Assembly: GCA_900016675.1 (NCBI GenBank)
Contig: LN483070.1
Coordinates: forward strand, 1,302,001-1,366,000
Source: Arthrobacter saudimassiliensis
GTDB lineage: Bacteria > Actinomycetota > Actinomycetes > Actinomycetales > Micrococcaceae
Length of the DNA stretch: 64,000 bases
Direction: 5' to 3'
Below the pieces are notes generated by a model that had not been told where the DNA came from, made no database searches, and saw only the letters and a program-made list of their open reading frames with translations. The translations under genes and the position numbers were made by a program. This document shows, piece after piece, positions 53,337 to 62,709 of the stretch. Every line of letters starts with the position of its first letter. Position 1 is the stretch's first letter.

Positions 53337-53927
53337 TCAGGACCGGTCCGCCGCCCAACGCAGCCGCAGGGTTTCCTCCATTTCCTGTTCCTCGATGCGC
53401 CGCACGATCTGGTCGAGGGTGCGTTCCAACCGGGGAATCCACCGGTTCTCCACCGCCCGCTGACGCGCCCGGGTTCCCTCCAGATCGGCTTCGACGAGCT
53501 CCAGGGCCCGCCGTGCCGCTGCAGACACCGCGGCGGTCCGCAGCGCCTCGGCATGGGACCGCGCGGCGAAGACCAACGCCGAGGAGCCCGCCTGGTCAGC
53601 GAAGGCGGGAAGCTCACAGCCGGCGGACGCGGGATACTCGATCCCCATGGACACCGCAGTCTGCAGGTGTACCCGCGCCCATGCCCCCGGCGCGGCTTCC
53701 CGGATACGCTCCATGCCGTCCAGTGCCGCGGACCGCTGCAGCCAGACCGCGGCGGCGCGGGCGGCCTCCTCCCAGGCCTGCTGCGCCTGCGCGGCCCGGC
53801 CCCGCAGCCGGGTGACCGTATGTTCCAGGATGCGCTGCTTGCGTTCGAGCAGCTCCGCGCCCCGCCGCGCCGTCTCCAGCCGGCGCTCCGCCTCGGCCCG
53901 GCCGGCCCGGCCGGTGGCCGGGCTCAC
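53337..53927 (-). CDS. ntpD: V/A-type ATPase subunit D (central stalk)
   Basis: 196 residues from a GTG that overlaps the B stop by four bases. Two long helices: residues about 3-65 (LETARRGAELLERKQRILEH) and the return helix RRALELVEADLEGTRARQRA, then VENRWIPRLERTLDQIVRRI EEQEM-type ending. The rotor shaft that fills the A3B3 ring. Last gene of the operon. Slightly short of the 200-220 usual. Confidence 0.88.
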   Translation of the reverse strand: MSPATGRAGRAEAERRLETARRGAELLERKQRILEHTVTRLRGRAAQAQQAWEEAARAAAVWLQRSAALDGMERIREAAPGAWARVHLQTAVSMGIEYPASAGCELPAFADQAGSSALVFAARSHAEALRTAAVSAAARRALELVEADLEGTRARQRAVENRWIPRLERTLDQIVRRIEEQEMEETLRLRWAADRS

Positions 53928-55438
53928 GCAGCGGCTCCGGGTGGTCCGTCGTCGCCCTCAGCCGTCCCGTCCGCGGCGTCGGGCACCGGCAGGTACCGGT
54001 CGACCAGCTCCGGGCTGAGCATGATCAGCTCCCGCCTGGGCAGCACGGAAAGGGCCCGCCAGGCCAGGTCGAACGTCTGGTCCAGGGTGCGCGCCTCGCT
54101 GCGGCCCTGGTTGAACAGCTCCTGCTCGACGGCAGTGCGGAACTCGATGTACGCCCGGTCGGTGTCGCTGAGCGCGGCGGTGCCGACCAGTTCGGCGAGC
54201 TCGGCGGCCTGCCGGGCGCGGGCCATGGCGGAGAGGATCTGCGCTGATACGTCGAGGTGGTCCTCCCGGGTCCGCCCGGCGCCGGCGCCGCTGCGCATCA
54301 GCCGGGACAGCGAGGAGAGCACGTCCACCGGGGGATAAATGCCGCGGGCGTCCAGTTCCGGCGACAGCACGACCTGGCCCTCGGTGATGTAGCCGGTGAG
54401 GTCCGGCACCGGGTGGGTCATGTCCCCGCCGGGCATGGTCAGCACGGGGACGATGGTCACCGAGCCCTCACGTCCGCGCACCCGCCCGCACCTCTCGTAC
54501 AAGGTGGCAAGGTCGCTGTAGAGGTTGCCCGGATAACCGCGCCGGGCAGGGATCTCCCGGCGGGCCGCGGACACCTCGCGGACGGCCTCGGCGTAGCTGG
54601 TCATGTCGCTCATCACGACGAGGACGTCGTCGCCGTTCTCATAGGCCAAATACTCGGCGATCGTCAGCGCGATGCGGGGCGTGAGGATCCGCTCGATCAC
54701 CGGGTCGTCGGCGGCGTTGAGCAGCAGCACCAGCTCCCCGGCGGCGGAACGCTCCTCGAGCCGGTCACGGATGTAGGCGATGTCGGAGTGCGTCATCCCC
54801 ATCGCCGCGAACACCACGCGGAACGGCCGGCCGGCGGTGGTGGCCTGCGCGGCAAGCTGGGTGGCCAGGGCCAGGTGCGGCAGCCCGGCCACGGAGAAGA
54901 TCGGCAGTTTCTGCCCGCGCACCAGGGTGGTCAGCGCGTCGATCACCGAGACGCCGGTCAGCACCGGATCCCGCGGCGGTTCCCGGTACACCGGGTTGAG
55001 TGGCCAGCCGCTCACCGGGGCCGCATCCTCCGCGGCCACCGGGGGCCCGCCGTCCAGCGGCTCGCCGCGGCCGTTGCAGACCCGCCCCAGCCAGCCGGTG
55101 CCCACGGCCACGTGCAGCGGCCGGCCCTCGAAACGGACCTGCAGCCCGCCCGGTGCCAGCCCTCCGGTGCCTTCCAGCACCTGCAGCACGGCGTCGCTGC
55201 CGGCCACCTCCAGCACCAGCGCGTGGCGGTCCGGGGCGCCGTCGACCTCGACGACGGCGAACTCGTCCCAGCCGACGCCCTGGACCCCGCCCATCACCAG
55301 CAGCGGGCCGCGCAGCTCCCGGACGTCGGTGTAGCCCACAAGGCGCCGCGCGGCTGCGAGCGCGGGATCCGCGCCGGCGGGACCGGCGCCGTCGGGGGCG
55401 CGCGGGTCCGGCCCGGGATGTCCGGCAGCGGTGCTCAT
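53924..55438 (-). CDS. ntpB: V/A-type ATPase subunit B (regulatory/non-catalytic)
   Basis: 504 residues. VFAAMGMTHSDIAYIRDRLE, LLLNAADDPVIERILTPR, VLVVMSDMTSYAEAVREVSA, RRGYPGNLYSDLATLYERCG and MPGGDMTHPVPDLTGYITEG are the B family signature. No P-loop (SVAGLPHLAL in its place), as in all B subunits. A Pro/Gly/Ala-rich N-terminal stretch of about 30 residues is extra. Confidence 0.95.
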   Translation of the reverse strand: MSTAAGHPGPDPRAPDGAGPAGADPALAAARRLVGYTDVRELRGPLLVMGGVQGVGWDEFAVVEVDGAPDRHALVLEVAGSDAVLQVLEGTGGLAPGGLQVRFEGRPLHVAVGTGWLGRVCNGRGEPLDGGPPVAAEDAAPVSGWPLNPVYREPPRDPVLTGVSVIDALTTLVRGQKLPIFSVAGLPHLALATQLAAQATTAGRPFRVVFAAMGMTHSDIAYIRDRLEERSAAGELVLLLNAADDPVIERILTPRIALTIAEYLAYENGDDVLVVMSDMTSYAEAVREVSAARREIPARRGYPGNLYSDLATLYERCGRVRGREGSVTIVPVLTMPGGDMTHPVPDLTGYITEGQVVLSPELDARGIYPPVDVLSSLSRLMRSGAGAGRTREDHLDVSAQILSAMARARQAAELAELVGTAALSDTDRAYIEFRTAVEQELFNQGRSEARTLDQTFDLAWRALSVLPRRELIMLSPELVDRYLPVPDAADGTAEGDDGPPGAAA

Positions 55439-57171
55439 GCCAGCTCCTGCAGGGTCCGGAGGAAGTCCGCTCCGCCGCGGGCTGCGCCGTCGGCGTCGTC
55501 GGGGCCCGTGTCCTCACGCAGCCGCAGCAGCGGGGTGAAGTCCATTTCCTCGATGCGGGCCGGCGGCACCCCGCGGCCCACCAGGTCCTGGCAGGCCTGC
55601 ACCGTGTCCAGCACGGCCTGCAGCAGCGCCGCGCCCTTGGCAGCGGAGCAGTAGCCGTCGTTGCGGCTCAGCGCGTTCTGCACCAGCACCCCGTCCCGCA
55701 GCAGCCGGGCGCCGAGCAGCACCATCTGTTCATGGCCGGGCAGGGACCCGGCACCGATGATCTCCGCCAGCGCAGCCACCCGATCCGCGTCGGCCAGCAG
55801 CAGCTGGGCCCGGGCGCGGCGGCCGATCCAGCCGGGGTCGCCCTGGTCCGCGTGCCAGCGCCCCAGTTCCTCGGCGTCCCGGGCGAAGGAGCCCCGCCAG
55901 CTGACGGCCGGATAGTGCCGTGAGTACGCCAGCTCGCGGTCCAGCAGCCACAGGGAGCGGACGAACCGCTGCGTGCCGGTGGTGACCGGTTCGCTCATGT
56001 CCCCGCCCGGGGGAGAGACGGCGCCGATCACGGTGACCGACGCCGTCGGCCCGCCCAGGGTGCGGACCCGCCCGGCCCGCTCGTAGAACGACGCCAGTTC
56101 GCTGGCCAGGTTGGCCGGGTAGCCCTCCTCGGCGGGCAGGTCCCCGTTGCGGTTGGCAAACTCGCGCAGCGCCTCCGCCCACCGGGAGGTGGAGTCGGCG
56201 ATGACCACGGCGTCGTAGCCCATGTCGCGGAAGAACTCGGCCACGGTGACACCGGTGTCGATGCACACCTCGCGGGCCATCATCGGCATGTTGGACGTGT
56301 TCGCGATGATCACCGTCCGGTCGATCAGCCTGCCGCCCGTGCGTTCGTCCTCCAGCTGGGAGAGCCCGTCGAGGACGTCGGACATTTCGTTGCCGCGCTC
56401 GCCGCAGCCCACGTAAATGATCACGTCGGCGTCGGAGTACTTGGCGATCTGCTGCAGCAGCAGGGTCTTGCCGGTGCCGAAGCCGCCGGGCACGGCGGCC
56501 GCGGAGCCGCGCGGCAGCGGGAACAGCAGGTCCAGCACGCGCTGCCCGGTGTGCAGCGGCACCGCTCCCGCCAGCCGCTCGCGGAACGGGCGCGGGCGGT
56601 GCACGGGCCACGGCTGGGCCAGCGGCACATCCGTGTCTCCGACCCGGGCGGCGGGATCGGCGGCGCGCACGCTGCCCTCCGCCAGCCAGTGCACCGTTCC
56701 GTGCAGGCCCGGCGGCACCAGGACCCGGAACTCGACGGCGCCCGCTCCCGCGACCACGCCGAGGACGGCGCCGGGACCGACGTCATCGCCCAGCCGGGCG
56801 GTGGGCCGGAACAGCCAGCGCTCGTCGAGCACGGCGGGATCGTCGGTGGCGGCCTGCCGGTCTGCGGAGAGCCAGAGCGGAGCGGTGGAGAGCGGGCGCA
56901 GCAGCCCGTCGAAGACCCGGCCGAGCAGCCCCGGGCCCAGCAGCGCGGACAGCTGCCGGCCGGTGGGCTCGGCCACGTCGCCGGCACGCAGCCCGCCGGT
57001 GTATTCGTAGGCCTGGAGGGTGGCGCGGCTGCCGCTGATGGAGACGGCCTGGGCGGCGATCCGTTCGTTGCCCAGGGCCAGCACCTCCAGCATGGACAGC
57101 CCCGGCAGCCCCTGGACCTCCACCAGCGGGCCGTTGATCCGGGTGACGCGGCCCGTTCCGTCGGGACTCAT
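55435..57171 (-). CDS. ntpA: V/A-type ATPase catalytic subunit A
   Basis: 578 residues, ATG at 57171 overlapping the E stop by ATGA (a GTG three codons earlier is possible). P-loop GGFGTGKTLLLQQIAKYSDA, YVGCGERGNEMSDVL (catalytic Glu), ADSTSRWAEALRE and PANLASELASFYERAG; the bulge domain around GTVHWLAEGSVRAADP. The P-loop GGFGTGKT has Gly for the usual Pro (GPFGSGKT). ATP hydrolysis/synthesis drives ion transport. Confidence 0.95.
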   Translation of the reverse strand: MSPDGTGRVTRINGPLVEVQGLPGLSMLEVLALGNERIAAQAVSISGSRATLQAYEYTGGLRAGDVAEPTGRQLSALLGPGLLGRVFDGLLRPLSTAPLWLSADRQAATDDPAVLDERWLFRPTARLGDDVGPGAVLGVVAGAGAVEFRVLVPPGLHGTVHWLAEGSVRAADPAARVGDTDVPLAQPWPVHRPRPFRERLAGAVPLHTGQRVLDLLFPLPRGSAAAVPGGFGTGKTLLLQQIAKYSDADVIIYVGCGERGNEMSDVLDGLSQLEDERTGGRLIDRTVIIANTSNMPMMAREVCIDTGVTVAEFFRDMGYDAVVIADSTSRWAEALREFANRNGDLPAEEGYPANLASELASFYERAGRVRTLGGPTASVTVIGAVSPPGGDMSEPVTTGTQRFVRSLWLLDRELAYSRHYPAVSWRGSFARDAEELGRWHADQGDPGWIGRRARAQLLLADADRVAALAEIIGAGSLPGHEQMVLLGARLLRDGVLVQNALSRNDGYCSAAKGAALLQAVLDTVQACQDLVGRGVPPARIEEMDFTPLLRLREDTGPDDADGAARGGADFLRTLQELA

Positions 57172-57688
57172 GCCGCCCACAGCCGGCTCACCTCAACGGG
57201 ATCGGCTGCCAGTTCCTGGCGGACCAGCGCCGGCAGGGACAGGTCCAGGGTGCGGGTTCCGGCGCGGGCGTGCAGCCCGCCCTCGGCGGCCTCGCTGATC
57301 TCCGCCTCCGGGCCGAGCAGCGCCTCGGCCCGGCGCCGCAGCGCCTGGAGCAGCGGGGGATAGCGCGGGTCGCTGCGCAGCGCCGCGGCCTGGGCGAGCA
57401 GTTCCTCGCGGAGGGCCGAGCGCAGTCGCTCCTGTTCGGCGAGCACCACGGCACCGGCCTCCCGCCGGGCCCGCGCCGACCGCAGGGCGGCCTCCGCGCG
57501 CCCTGCCTCCGCACCCTCTTCCCGCGCCTGCCGCACCGTGTCCGCGGCCCGACGCCGGGCGCGGTCGAGGATGCGGCCGGCCTCTTCTCCTGCCGCGAGG
57601 GTGATCCGCCGGGCCTCGATGCCGGCGTCGTCCGCGAGCGCCGAGCGCACCGGCGCCAGGGCCGGACCGGCGTCCCGGGGCAGCCCCG

Positions 57689-57692
<4 letters not shown>
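57168..57692 (-). CDS. V/A-type ATPase subunit E (peripheral stalk)
   Basis: 174 residues, GTG start overlapping the F stop. A long Ala/Arg-rich helix (AGEEAGRILDRARRRAADTV then RQAREEGAEAGRAEAALRSA), a globular end with RYPPLLQALRRRAEALLGPE. With the coiled-coil protein encoded at 60712-61176 it should form the outer stalk. Identified largely by helix pattern and operon position. Confidence 0.75.
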
Positions 57693-58404
<712 letters not shown>

Positions 58405-59769
58405 TCACTGGATCGGGGATGCCCGGTGGCGGTTTCCGCGGGGCCGCGGGCGGTGCCGGCCGGCGCCGGCGGTGGAACCGGCTGCGTCCGGGCCCGGGGC
58501 ACCGTCCAGATCCGGGGCCCAGGGGCGGAAGCGCCGCCCTTCGGCCTGGAAGACGCGGGAGAACAGTTCGTAGTACTCCAGGCGCAGCGCCTGGATGCCC
58601 GCCACCAGGCCCTCGAGGGCGAAGGTGACGGCGTTGCCGACAAGGAACACCAGCACCGCTGCCACGGCGCGCCAGTCCGGAGCCCAGAGCGCGGTGGTGC
58701 CGTCCCACACGACGCCCATCAGCGCGGCGTGCGTGAGCCCGAAAGCGGCCAGCCGGGCGAAGGAAACCAGGTTGGAGCCCAGCTGCACCACGGTGTCCAC
58801 CAGCTCCACGGACGCCTGCAGGCCGCCGCCCGCTCCGCCGCCGGATTCGGTGAAGAGGCCGACGAAGATGAAGCCCAGCGCCAGCACGCCCAGGACCGCC
58901 GCGGCGAGGACCAGGGGACCCGCGCCGGCGACGAGGCCCCAGGCCAGGAGGCCCACGGCCAGGAACAGTGCGGACCCGGCCAGCCCGGACCGGGCGTAGA
59001 GCGCGTAACCCCATCCGCCCTCGCGGATCCGGTTGACGGTGCCGAGCGCGTAGGCCCCGGCCAGCAGCACGGCGCCGAAAAGCACTGCGGCGATGAGCAG
59101 CGGTATCGGTTCCTCGAGCGGATCGAGCCAGAGCACGGGCAGCACGCCGGTGGGGCCGAAGAACTCGCCGTACAGGACCCCGAACACGACGGCGGCCAGG
59201 CCCGCTCCGGTGACGAACAGCCAGGCGCCCCGCCAGCGGCGCAGCCGGGCCACCCGGCCGGTGCGCAGCACCAGGCCCGCCGCCACCAGCGGCAGGCCCT
59301 GCCCGGCGTCGCCGAACATCATCCCGAACATGATCACGTAGGCCAGGGCAGCCAGCAGCGCGGGGTCAACGCCGCCGTAGGGAACCGTGGTGTAGGTGTC
59401 CACGAGCAGCCGTGAGGGCCGGGGGGCGGCCTGCTTCGAGCCGCCGCCGGCCAGCAGGGTCGGCGGGTCCGTGCCGCGCGGTTTCTTCAGCGGGACCAGG
59501 CCCGCGCCGCGCGGTGCGAGCGCACCGGCAAGGGCCGGCACGTCATGGGCGGGGGACCAGCCCGCCCACGCGGCGAGCGGACCGCGCACGACGGCGGCCG
59601 CCTCCGCCCGGTCCAGCTCCCCGGCGTCGGTGCCCGGCTCGTAGGGCAGGTCCAGTTCCAGGGTCCCGTGCCGGGCGACCTCGGTGAGCGCCTCGCGCCG
59701 GCGTTCCAGCGGGCAGACCAGCGAGACGCGCTCCATGCGCACCGGGGAGAGGTCCTCACGCCACGGCAT
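58405..59769 (-). CDS. ntpI: V/A-type ATPase subunit I (a), shortened
   Basis: 454 residues against 600-660 usual. The cytoplasmic head is only about 125 residues (MERVSLVCPLERRREALTEV at the start), then seven or eight membrane segments: YVIMFGMMFGDAGQGLPLVA, FGVLYGEFFG, and the key helix LGSNLVSFARLAAFGLTHAA with the essential Arg. GNAVTFALEGLVAGIQALRL and EYYELFSRVF close the core. A 40-residue Arg/Gly tail follows. Starts 14 bases inside the end of the C gene. Confidence 0.9.
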   Translation of the reverse strand: MPWREDLSPVRMERVSLVCPLERRREALTEVARHGTLELDLPYEPGTDAGELDRAEAAAVVRGPLAAWAGWSPAHDVPALAGALAPRGAGLVPLKKPRGTDPPTLLAGGGSKQAAPRPSRLLVDTYTTVPYGGVDPALLAALAYVIMFGMMFGDAGQGLPLVAAGLVLRTGRVARLRRWRGAWLFVTGAGLAAVVFGVLYGEFFGPTGVLPVLWLDPLEEPIPLLIAAVLFGAVLLAGAYALGTVNRIREGGWGYALYARSGLAGSALFLAVGLLAWGLVAGAGPLVLAAAVLGVLALGFIFVGLFTESGGGAGGGLQASVELVDTVVQLGSNLVSFARLAAFGLTHAALMGVVWDGTTALWAPDWRAVAAVLVFLVGNAVTFALEGLVAGIQALRLEYYELFSRVFQAEGRRFRPWAPDLDGAPGPDAAGSTAGAGRHRPRPRGNRHRASPIQ

Positions 59770-60715
59770 TGAGCACCTCGCTGGATCCGGTCTCGCCTGC
59801 CGCGGCGGCCAGCGCGGCCCGCAGGCGCCACGCGTCGGCCGTCAGCACCTCCACGGCGCCGAACACCACCTCCGGGCCCGGCACCCCCGAGCGCAGCAGG
59901 CGGAAACCCTTCGCCTCCTCCAGGACCGGCAGGGTGGATTCGGCCCGCCACAGGTCGGCGGGGGTGGACAGGTCTGCGAGCAGCGGTTGCAGCCGTGCGG
60001 GCAGGGCCGCGCGCAGTTCGGCCAGGCTCCGCGCCTCGGTCCAGCCGACTCCGAGGAGCGGCCGCAGCAGGGACACCAGGCGGGCGGCGGGCGGGGTGCC
60101 GCCGACCAGGCGGACCCGGGCTGCGAGCAGCGCCGCAGCCCGGGCGGTGCTGTCGGCTGCCTCCGGGGCCGCCGCGGCGAGCCGGCGCAGGCGCACCGCG
60201 GTGAGCACCGCGGGCAGGTCCGGGCCGGGGTCGCCCCATGGCGACCGCCGCAGCAGGTCGGCCAGCTCGGCGGGGGAATCCGCCACTGAGATCCGAGGCC
60301 AGGCGGTGGCGAGGCTGCCGAGCTCGAACGGCGCCGCTTCGCCCCGCCCGTCCGTGCCGGTCCGGCTCATCGGGGCGGGCGACGGCGCGGAACCCTGCGC
60401 CAGACGCCGGGCCAGCTGGATGATGTTGTCCGCCTCATAGGCGGCGGCGACGGCCCGCAGCAGCGCCGTGCCGCCCGGGGGAACCCAGCCGGCCAGCACC
60501 CGCACTTCCCAGAGCACCGAATCCCGGGTGGCCCGCTGGGCCGCGAGCAGGGTGTCGGCGGAGGCCAGCCGGGGACCGTATCCGGTCTCGCGGAGCAGGT
60601 CGAGCCCCGCGCTGAGGCTCCCGGACCGGGCCACCCGGTCGATCAGCCCGCTGCCGGCGCGGCGCCGGGCCATCGAGCGGGACCGGACGGTGGCGGCCAC
60701 CCAGTCCGAATTCAC
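59756..60715 (-). CDS. V/A-type ATPase subunit C (d)
   Basis: 319 residues, GTG start overlapping the previous stop. Three similar helical parts typical of the funnel-shaped C/d subunit: SADTLLAAQRATRDSVLWEV, AAAYEADNIIQLARRLAQG and LPVLEEAKGFRLLRSGVPGP. Joins the central stalk to the c ring. Identified from helix pattern plus position. Confidence 0.82.
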   Translation of the reverse strand: MNSDWVAATVRSRSMARRRAGSGLIDRVARSGSLSAGLDLLRETGYGPRLASADTLLAAQRATRDSVLWEVRVLAGWVPPGGTALLRAVAAAYEADNIIQLARRLAQGSAPSPAPMSRTGTDGRGEAAPFELGSLATAWPRISVADSPAELADLLRRSPWGDPGPDLPAVLTAVRLRRLAAAAPEAADSTARAAALLAARVRLVGGTPPAARLVSLLRPLLGVGWTEARSLAELRAALPARLQPLLADLSTPADLWRAESTLPVLEEAKGFRLLRSGVPGPEVVFGAVEVLTADAWRLRAALAAAAGETGSSEVLNAVA

Positions 60716-61176
60716 GCTGACCCGTCCCCGGCCGGTTCGTCCCGCGGCATCCCCGCCTCCATCCGCTCCACCATCCGGTCCAGGAGTGCGGCGGCGGTGG
60801 GCCCGAGCCGGCTGCGGCCCCGTTCCCTCAGCCGGCCCGCCCGGCGGCGCGCCTCGGCAAGCCGCCGCGCGTCGGCCGCCTCGACGGCCTCGGCTGCTTC
60901 CGCTGCGGCCGCCGCACGGGCAGCCGCGGCAGCCTGGCGGGAGCCCTCGAGGATCCCGGCGGCCTGGGTGCGGGCGGCGGCAAGGTGCCGGTCGGCGGCG
61001 CGGCGTGCCTCGTCGATCCGCCGGGCGGCGGCGTCGACGTCCGGCTGCAGGGCCGCGAACACCGGGCCCAGCTCCGCCTCCGGTCCCGGGCGGTCCTCGG
61101 CGGGAACGGCGGCCGGCCCTGCCGGTCCCGGGGCGCCGACGGGCCGGAAACGGTCCAGCAGGCTGCGCCTGGCCAT
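60712..61176 (-). CDS. Coiled-coil peripheral stalk protein (subunit G/H-like)
   Basis: 154 residues, ATG at 61176. A Pro-rich head then a continuous Ala/Arg/Glu helix (DEARRAADRHLAAARTQAAG; RQAAAAARAAAAAEAAEAVE) with LDRMVERMEAGM at the end. Pattern and place fit a G/H stalk subunit. Four bases after the ferritin-like gene and overlapping the C gene. Confidence 0.7.
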   Translation of the reverse strand: MARRSLLDRFRPVGAPGPAGPAAVPAEDRPGPEAELGPVFAALQPDVDAAARRIDEARRAADRHLAAARTQAAGILEGSRQAAAAARAAAAAEAAEAVEAADARRLAEARRRAGRLRERGRSRLGPTAAALLDRMVERMEAGMPRDEPAGDGSA

Positions 61177-61180
61177 CGGC

Positions 61181-61501
61181 TCAGTCGTCCGTTGCCCGGG
61201 CCTCGGCGGCTTCGCCGTTGCGGACGATGTCGCCGTCCACCAGCAGGATGCCGCGGGCAATGTCGCGCCACAGCGGCGTGCGGCGGAGCAGGAACTCCAG
61301 CTCCATGCAGAAGTGCTTGTATTCCTCGCCCAGTGAGTCATGCATGATGGCCCGGGATTCCGCATCCGGCTCCACGGCCATCCGCTGCACGTACCAGCCG
61401 ATCGCCTCGGCCTCCTCGGCCAGGGAGGCGCACATCCTGGCGAAGGTCCTGGTTTCTGCCGGCAGTTCTCCCGGCGGTTCGTGATACTGCTCGGTGCCCA
61501 T
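61181..61501 (-). CDS. Encapsulated-ferritin-type (EncFtn-like) iron-binding protein
   Basis: 106 residues, ATG at 61501, GGGAG upstream. Two helices: residues 16-45 and 46-75. The line-up with encapsulated ferritins is gap-free from HEPP (residues 7-10): ET, EEAEAIGWYVQR, then GEEYKHFCMELEFLLRR. The di-iron ligands E32, E62 and H65 of the Rhodospirillum protein correspond to Glu30, Glu60 and His63 here, and the aromatic pair to Trp36-Tyr37. No encapsulin targeting peptide is seen at the C-terminus, and no encapsulin gene in the window. It is the first gene of the ATPase operon, four bases from the next gene. Confidence 0.72.
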   Translation of the reverse strand: MGTEQYHEPPGELPAETRTFARMCASLAEEAEAIGWYVQRMAVEPDAESRAIMHDSLGEEYKHFCMELEFLLRRTPLWRDIARGILLVDGDIVRNGEAAEARATDD

Positions 61502-61700
61502 GACGGCTCCCTTGAAAGGCCGCCGGGCCGCTTGGGGCGGGCCCCGGCGGTGCAGATCAGTAACTCATCGAGCGTACGTTTCGCGCCGCAGGGCACACAA
61601 TGGGTCCCGCCCATTCCGGCCGGGGCCGGCCTGGGCCTGCGCCCGTGGCTGCCCCGCAGCAAACCGCCGTTCCCGGTCCTTCCTGCCCACGGCACAGCAG

Positions 61701-61730
61701 AGCCCCGGCAGCCGGGCGGCTGCCGGGGCT
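61701..61730 (-). terminator. Hairpin after msrB
   Basis: AGCCCCGGCAGCC (61701-61713) and GGCTGCCGGGGCT (61718-61730) form a perfect 13-pair stem with a GGGC loop, 11 bases after the msrB stop. The 240-base gap to the ferritin-like gene must also hold the ATPase operon promoter, which I could not pick out. Confidence 0.75.
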
Positions 61731-61741
61731 CCGGCAGGAAC

Positions 61742-62203
61742 TCAGGCCTGGGTGCCGGAGGCGTCGTCGCGCGGAACGAGCTTCAGCGACACGGAGTTGA
61801 TGCAGTAGCGCTGGTCGGTGGGCGTGGGGAAGCCCTCGCCTTCGAACACATGGCCGAGGTGCGAATCGCACGCGGCGCAGCGGACCTCGATGCGGTCCAT
61901 GCCCATCGACCGGTCGTGCAGGTACCGGACGCGGTCCTCGGCGAGGGGAGCGAAGAAGGACGGCCAGCCGCAGTGCGAGTCGAACTTCTCCGTGCTGGTG
62001 AACAGGTCGGCGCCGCAGGCCCGGCACTGATAGACGCCGGCGGTCTTGGTGTCCCAGTACTCGCCGGTGTAGGGCCGCTCGGTTCCGGCCTGCCGGAGCA
62101 CCTGGTATTCCTGCGGGGTGAGTTCGGCCCGCCACTGCTCATCGGTCTTCCGCACGGCGGCGGTGGCGGCGGTGTCCTGGGGGGAGGTCTCGGGTGTGGT
62201 CAT
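61742..62203 (-). CDS. msrB: Peptide-methionine (R)-S-oxide reductase
   Basis: 153 residues. Reduces R-methionine sulfoxide in proteins. Zinc pairs CRAC and CAAC, FDSHCGWPSF, GHVFEGEG and the catalytic Cys134 in RYCINSVSLKL. DEQWRAELTPQEYQVLRQAG at the start is the family pattern. Separated from the next gene to the right by 14 bases. Confidence 0.94.
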   Translation of the reverse strand: MTTPETSPQDTAATAAVRKTDEQWRAELTPQEYQVLRQAGTERPYTGEYWDTKTAGVYQCRACGADLFTSTEKFDSHCGWPSFFAPLAEDRVRYLHDRSMGMDRIEVRCAACDSHLGHVFEGEGFPTPTDQRYCINSVSLKLVPRDDASGTQA

Positions 62204-62217
62204 GACAGCGACAACGC

Positions 62218-62709
62218 TTAAGCGTCGCCAATAAATCCCGAACCGGAATACAGGTGGAGGACCGGAATGTGCAGCCGTTCCTGGGCTTCATTTGCCCAGT
62301 CGGTGCGCAGGGTGTCCTCCACCGCGTGCGGCGTCGTAATCACCACCGCCTGCCTGGCCCCGGTCCGGGCCGCGGCGTCGACGACGGCGGCCACCGGGTC
62401 GCCGTCCACCACGGTGCCCCGGGCCTGAAGTCCGGCCTCGTGCAGCAGGCGCAGGCTCGCAGCCAGGTCCCGGCCCGCCTCGCGCTGCTGCTCGGCGGGC
62501 CCCGGCCGGTCTGTCGAGAGGTTCCGGAATGCCTCGGCGAATTCCAGCAGGCTCAGCCTGTCGAGGAACTCCACCAGCAGGTTGCCGCCTGTTTCGGCGG
62601 GCACCAGCAGCTCGAAGGCGGCCGGTTCCACCTCGGCGAGGGACGCCAGGTTGGCGACGTCCACGGAGTTCAGGGCCTCTTCGGTCAGCACAAGGATCGT
62701 TCCGCTCAT
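62218..62709 (-). CDS. Universal-stress-like protein
   Basis: 163 residues (ATG 62709; a GTG two codons earlier is possible). Alternating pattern: TILVLTEEALNS, AAFELLVPAE, GLQARGTVVDGDPVAAVVDA, ARQAVVITTPHAVEDTLRTD and WANEAQERLHIPVLHLYSG. The second half has the UspA layout (VDGDP then a beta strand and LHIPVLHL) but the GxxGS nucleotide loop is not seen. Probably co-transcribed with msrB. Seen in Micrococcaceae as a hypothetical. Confidence 0.65.
   Translation of the reverse strand: MSGTILVLTEEALNSVDVANLASLAEVEPAAFELLVPAETGGNLLVEFLDRLSLLEFAEAFRNLSTDRPGPAEQQREAGRDLAASLRLLHEAGLQARGTVVDGDPVAAVVDAAARTGARQAVVITTPHAVEDTLRTDWANEAQERLHIPVLHLYSGSGFIGDA

Follow-up and report, generated by a model that had tools for sequence, protein, structure and literature searches.

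Short EncFtn proteins without a tail have already been described as s-FLPs and were originally classed as non-encapsulated (PMC11202242). As characterized in that paper, s-FLPs lack a long disordered tail and a targeting peptide, and EncFtn rings form no storage cage. The metal center residues that we used for comparison are those given for the Rru_A0973 EncFtn in PMC5012862. Here, we analyzed a window of 64,000 nucleotides from Arthrobacter saudimassiliensis in which a gene for a protein of this kind heads the gene cluster for a V/A-type ATPase.

The gene, here referred to as FTN (61181 to 61501, minus strand), starts with ATG and encodes a protein of 106 amino acids. The initial annotation, made from the sequence alone, had likened this protein to encapsulated ferritins and suggested a profile search. 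In that search, FTN matched the Pfam family EncFtn-like (PF22277) with an E value of 3.2e-18 and 65.7 bits (curated cut-off, 27), which makes it a member of this family; the score for NCBIfam TIGR04535 (ferrit_encaps) was 68.8 bits and, thus, below the cut-off of 125. Using phmmer, residues 5 to 95 of FTN aligned without gaps to residues 7 to 97 of Rru_A0973 (E value, 2e-11). With the resulting offset of 2, E30, W36, Y37, E60, and H63 of FTN correspond to residues 32, 38, 39, 62, and 65 of Rru_A0973, in agreement with the gap-free alignment and the five metal center residues noted initially. FTN, therefore, has the di-iron ligand set (E, E-x-x-H, and W/Y near the center) as well as the entry-site residues E29 and E32. 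Among 103 distinct relatives, a count from which two rows of one frameshifted genome were excluded, E29, E30, W36, Y37, E60, and H63 were present in all 103 and E32 in 98.

An AlphaFold monomer model of FTN, built from a shallow alignment of nine close relatives, had a pLDDT of 79 and a pTM of 0.62. The best fold match of this model was 3k6c (NE0167 of N. europaea; TM score 0.72 by query, E value 3e-4), followed by Rru_A0973 (5da5), and 3k6c was also the best profile match. FTN ends soon after the core, and no targeting peptide was found at the C-terminus, as the initial annotation had stated. FTN fits the description of s-FLPs in PMC11202242 and is, therefore, a short tail-less EncFtn-type protein of a known kind. 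It is also under strong purifying selection (median dN/dS of 0.05 in 96 pairs from the genus with dS <1). Some copies in the genus (L053, L054, L110 to L113, and L120) have extended tails, giving proteins of 111 to 126 amino acids, without a targeting peptide; these tails are perhaps relics of a lost linker.

With the last base of the FTN stop codon at 61181 and the ATG of the following gene at 61176, four bases separate FTN from the first ATPase gene, as reported initially. This first ATPase gene (60712 to 61176, minus strand) encodes an alanine-rich protein of 154 amino acids that, judged by position alone, is presumably a peripheral-stalk subunit (G/H type). The protein had no informative match in Pfam or NCBIfam; the gene has the same place in the operons of the genus, and the start of the protein, MAR..LDRFRPVG, is conserved. 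The genes that follow, all on the minus strand, are for the subunits C (59756 to 60715; PF01992, E value 1e-4), I (58405 to 59769; PF01496, 1.5e-15), K (57931 to 58392; PF00137, 1.1e-15), F (57689 to 57934; PF01990, 0.011), E (57168 to 57692; PF01991, 0.016), the catalytic subunit A (55435 to 57180; NF003220, 614 bits with a cut-off of 470), B (53924 to 55438; NF003235, 590 bits with a cut-off of 349), and D (53337 to 53927; PF01813, 2.8e-25). Subunits I, K, A, B, and D scored above the Pfam cut-offs, while the matches for C, F, and E fell below the curated cut-offs, and the names of these three, therefore, lean on position. Besides this V/A-type ATPase (53337 to 61176), the genome has matches to F-type-like ATPase subunits at a second place (G000:C2:84294-87852). 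Upstream of FTN and outside the inferred transcript lies the gene for the peptide methionine-R-sulfoxide reductase MsrB (61742 to 62203, minus strand; PF01641 SelR, E value 1.7e-51), and a Usp-like gene, with a weak match, is also located upstream on the same strand as msrB. A search of the region 61100 to 62300 against Rfam gave no match.

We compared the locus across 29 genomes of the Arthrobacter group to which the window belongs. All 29 encode MsrB upstream of the locus, the ATPase A subunit scored over the cut-off in 27, and EncFtn was found in 26. Both genes were present in 24 genomes, and in all 24, FTN heads the ATPase cluster, which supports its proposed place at the head of the operon. 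The spacing of four bases was observed in the window only; the distance was 26 to 146 bases in 22 other genomes, arguing that tight coupling of the two genes is not general, and in G154 the script returned no distance. Two genomes (G100 and G155) have kept the order Usp-MsrB-EncFtn while the ATPase is gone, and three have the ATPase without an intact FTN, which is deleted in G058 and G149 with the ATPase directly after MsrB and truncated to a 29-codon frame before the ATPase in G167. In G164, the FTN reading frame is broken, as is the C subunit gene in the same assembly, so the frame break may be a sequencing error. In a tree based on MsrB and Usp, in which some forks are weak (support of 5.5/54 for the place of G149 and 64.3/73 for the pair inside the luteolus group), the losses are scattered; G058 and G167 are nested in groups that keep FTN, and the ATPase-less G100 and G155 cluster with A. 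luteolus, a species that has both genes.

Upstream of FTN, we identified a conserved promoter-like element (61568 to 61602, minus strand) that consists of TTGTGT (61600 to 61595), an 18-bp spacer, and TACGCT (61576 to 61571) followed by CGA. In the strict form CATTGT, 16 to 19 bases, CGTA, three bases, and TCGA, this block is present upstream of the locus in 28 of the 29 genomes; in the remaining genome (G151), we found by eye TTGTGC-17-TAACCT, which keeps the hexamers apart from an altered first base. The element matched once in the 3.55-Mb genome of the window and not in the reversed control. We read it as a promoter of the form TTGTNN-17/18-TANNNT, which we take to be sigma-A-like; alternatively, its upstream part could act for a regulator rather than for a sigma factor. 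A generic scan of the region for promoter and terminator consensus sequences found nothing. The element precedes the ATPase genes in the genomes in which FTN is deleted (G058 and G149) or truncated (G167), which argues for one transcription unit, and it precedes EncFtn alone in G100 and G155. In the simplest reading of these sequences, FTN and the ATPase genes would form one transcript from a predicted shared promoter. Of the 28 genomes that have the element in its strict form, eight (L050, L051, L107, L108, L122, L126, L127, and L129), all in the citreus/luteolus subgroup, carry an exact inverted repeat of 9 to 18 bases; its left arm overlaps or immediately precedes the −10 hexamer and, in several of them, a run of T comes after the right arm. 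This repeat, located ahead of FTN or the ATPase genes, could end the msrB transcript while sparing one started at the promoter.

Outside the genus, the picture is different. This ATPase was found in 31 of 295 genomes of the family, nine of them outside the genus, and in 14 genomes besides that of the window among 394 genomes of the class. None of the nine non-genus family loci has an EncFtn gene near the ATPase; at one of them (L166), the operon head lies near the start of the contig, and the genome has no PF22277 match anywhere. Among the 23 actinobacterial genomes outside the genus with this ATPase, 22 had no PF22277 match, and in the remaining one (G052), EncFtn is on another contig and adjoins an encapsulin gene, and hence a link between the ATPase and EncFtn was rejected for all 23. 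Conversely, the surroundings of EncFtn were screened at 67 named loci outside the genus and at five plasmid loci, and the fetched stretches, some of them shortened by the end of a contig, did not contain the gene for the ATPase A subunit. The linkage, for which a check in other genomes had been proposed, therefore holds inside the genus but not beyond it. In our literature search, which covered open-licence papers, no paper tied an EncFtn or ferritin-like protein to a V-type ATPase.

EncFtn relatives differ in tail and neighborhood. In a sample of 149 genomes of the family, 26 have EncFtn, with 29 copies in total; outside the genus, there are 22 copies, of which 17 are tailed with an encapsulin gene in the fetched stretch (one interrupted by an assembly gap) and five are tail-less without one. 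Among the best 80 of 413 named relatives, 47 have an encapsulin gene within the locus; all 47 have at least 125 amino acids, and 46 have a targeting-peptide-like tail, while the 47th is interrupted by an assembly gap. The other 33 of these 80 comprise 13 from the genus of the window, 16 tail-less copies of 104 to 113 amino acids, three copies with a targeting-peptide-type tail but without a shell gene in the locus, and one cut by a contig end. None of the 16 tail-less copies has an encapsulin gene in the locus. These counts support that the tail goes with a neighboring shell gene and that FTN belongs to the tail-less type. The neighbors of 17 tail-less copies outside the genus and of the two ATPase-less loci of the genus, identified mostly by eye from translations, did not reveal a shared partner. 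An EncFtn gene tree from 90 columns was poorly resolved and did not show the genus copies as one clade; the tail-less copies need at least six label changes on it, a number for loose use only since the label "short" included cut or misassembled rows. On two conjugative plasmids of Bradyrhizobium (L172 and L173), the gene for a tail-less EncFtn of 104 amino acids and the iron exporter gene mbfA are oriented divergently, and the EncFtn gene is followed by cytochrome b. Copies from mycobacteria (L219 and L229) and Skermania (L210) have a targeting-peptide-like tail (e.g., LDVGSLKG) without an encapsulin gene within the fetched stretch and are possibly unlinked cargo.

Based on these data, we favor, with a probability of about 0.7, that FTN is a putative free-standing cytosolic ferroxidase coexpressed with the ATPase, which does not depend on it. 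From what is known of the family, FTN would form a decamer of dimers in which each dimer interface holds a ferroxidase center, and this ring would oxidize Fe2+ in the cytosol. Because EncFtn rings form no storage cage, FTN would act as an enzyme for protection against iron and peroxide rather than as a mineral store. Fe3+ could possibly be handed to another ferritin-family protein (PF00210), the gene for which is present in the same genome and with which the role of FTN may be redundant. Transcribed from one conserved promoter, FTN and the ATPase genes would rise and fall together, while neither protein would need the other. That each partner was lost without the other, FTN remaining without the ATPase in two genomes and the ATPase without an intact FTN in three, argues for shared expression rather than an iron-linked motor. 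Most simply, the neighborhood would have been present in the ancestor of the Arthrobacter group and later lost piecewise.

A functional link is the first alternative. FTN could be a working partner or a metal-responsive regulator of the rotary ATPase, e.g., by adjusting pumping in response to iron or oxidative stress. The unbroken adjacency in the 24 genomes with both genes, the promoter-like element common to both, and the strong purifying selection on FTN are consistent with this idea; nevertheless, we consider it unlikely, because conserved synteny inside a single genus is expected even without a function, the losses of single partners are nested in the tree, and both the ATPase genomes and the EncFtn loci outside the genus lack the pairing. 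For the same reasons, the suggestion in the initial annotation that an iron oxidase or metal sensor is coupled to a rotary ATPase was not borne out as a general system. The operon position is specific to one genus, and the operon is better supported than initially described and the coupling less so. In a narrower version, which we regard as quite improbable, a free EncFtn ring would work with the V/A-type ATPase from one promoter in the Arthrobacter citreus/luteolus/gandavensis group, tying iron oxidation or iron status to ion pumping; this arrangement would have become fixed in the group's ancestor, and a few species would have given it up later.

It is likewise improbable that FTN is a stray gene copy without remaining function, caught in the operon and in the course of decay. 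The deletions in G058 and G149, the truncation in G167, and the extended tails in the genus, which look like worn linkers, would fit such decay, but FTN is kept in 26 of the 29 genomes with a low dN/dS and all metal ligands, and the frame break in G164 may stem from a sequencing error.

The shell question bears on the last alternative. Encapsulin, searched for as the single shell family PF04454, was found neither in the whole genome of the window nor in any of the 29 genus genomes, most of which are near complete, while 3 of 14 control genomes were positive, as expected. The absence of an encapsulin neighbor, noted from the start, thus extends to the entire genome, and the candidate explanation of an encapsulin gene elsewhere was rejected. 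Consequently, that FTN is cargo of an encapsulin whose gene is elsewhere or was missed is highly improbable and already largely refuted, since no tail in FTN or the other genus copies matches a targeting peptide, even though a shell gene adjoins 47 of the best 80 of 413 relatives and s-FLPs might still be encapsulated via an undefined sequence, as considered in PMC11202242.

This genus is a clean natural case, in which a shell-less EncFtn occurs across a genus and the shell-bound form in sister genera, so that the role of the ring itself can be tested. Moreover, the lines in which FTN is deleted or truncated while the promoter is kept before the ATPase offer a ready comparison for the importance of the first gene to the ATPase. 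A link between iron and the ATPase would, if true, be a new kind of coupling; the evidence leans against it.

Compared with known systems, the ATPase operons of other Micrococcaceae have the same subunits, with A subunits that are 65% to 72% identical, but none of the nine loci has an FTN-like gene nearby or the promoter-like element (0/9 for each). The EncFtn proteins on Bradyrhizobium and Rhodopseudomonas plasmids are tail-less like FTN, have 104 amino acids and 59% to 65% identity to it, and lack an encapsulin gene in the fetched stretch; instead of a rotary ATPase, their neighbors are the iron exporter MbfA, cytochrome b, metal P-type ATPases, and CDF transporters. Classical EncFtn, or FLP-TP, with encapsulin (Rru_A0973, PDB 5da5) shares the gap-free alignment and the di-iron residues, while FTN has no SLGIGSLK-type tail and its genome no encapsulin gene. 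Closest is the s-FLP NE0167 (PDB 3k6c), which shares with FTN a length of ~95 to 106 amino acids, the lack of a targeting peptide, the fold, and the ligand set; NE0167 has 95 residues, while FTN, with 106, heads an ATPase operon.
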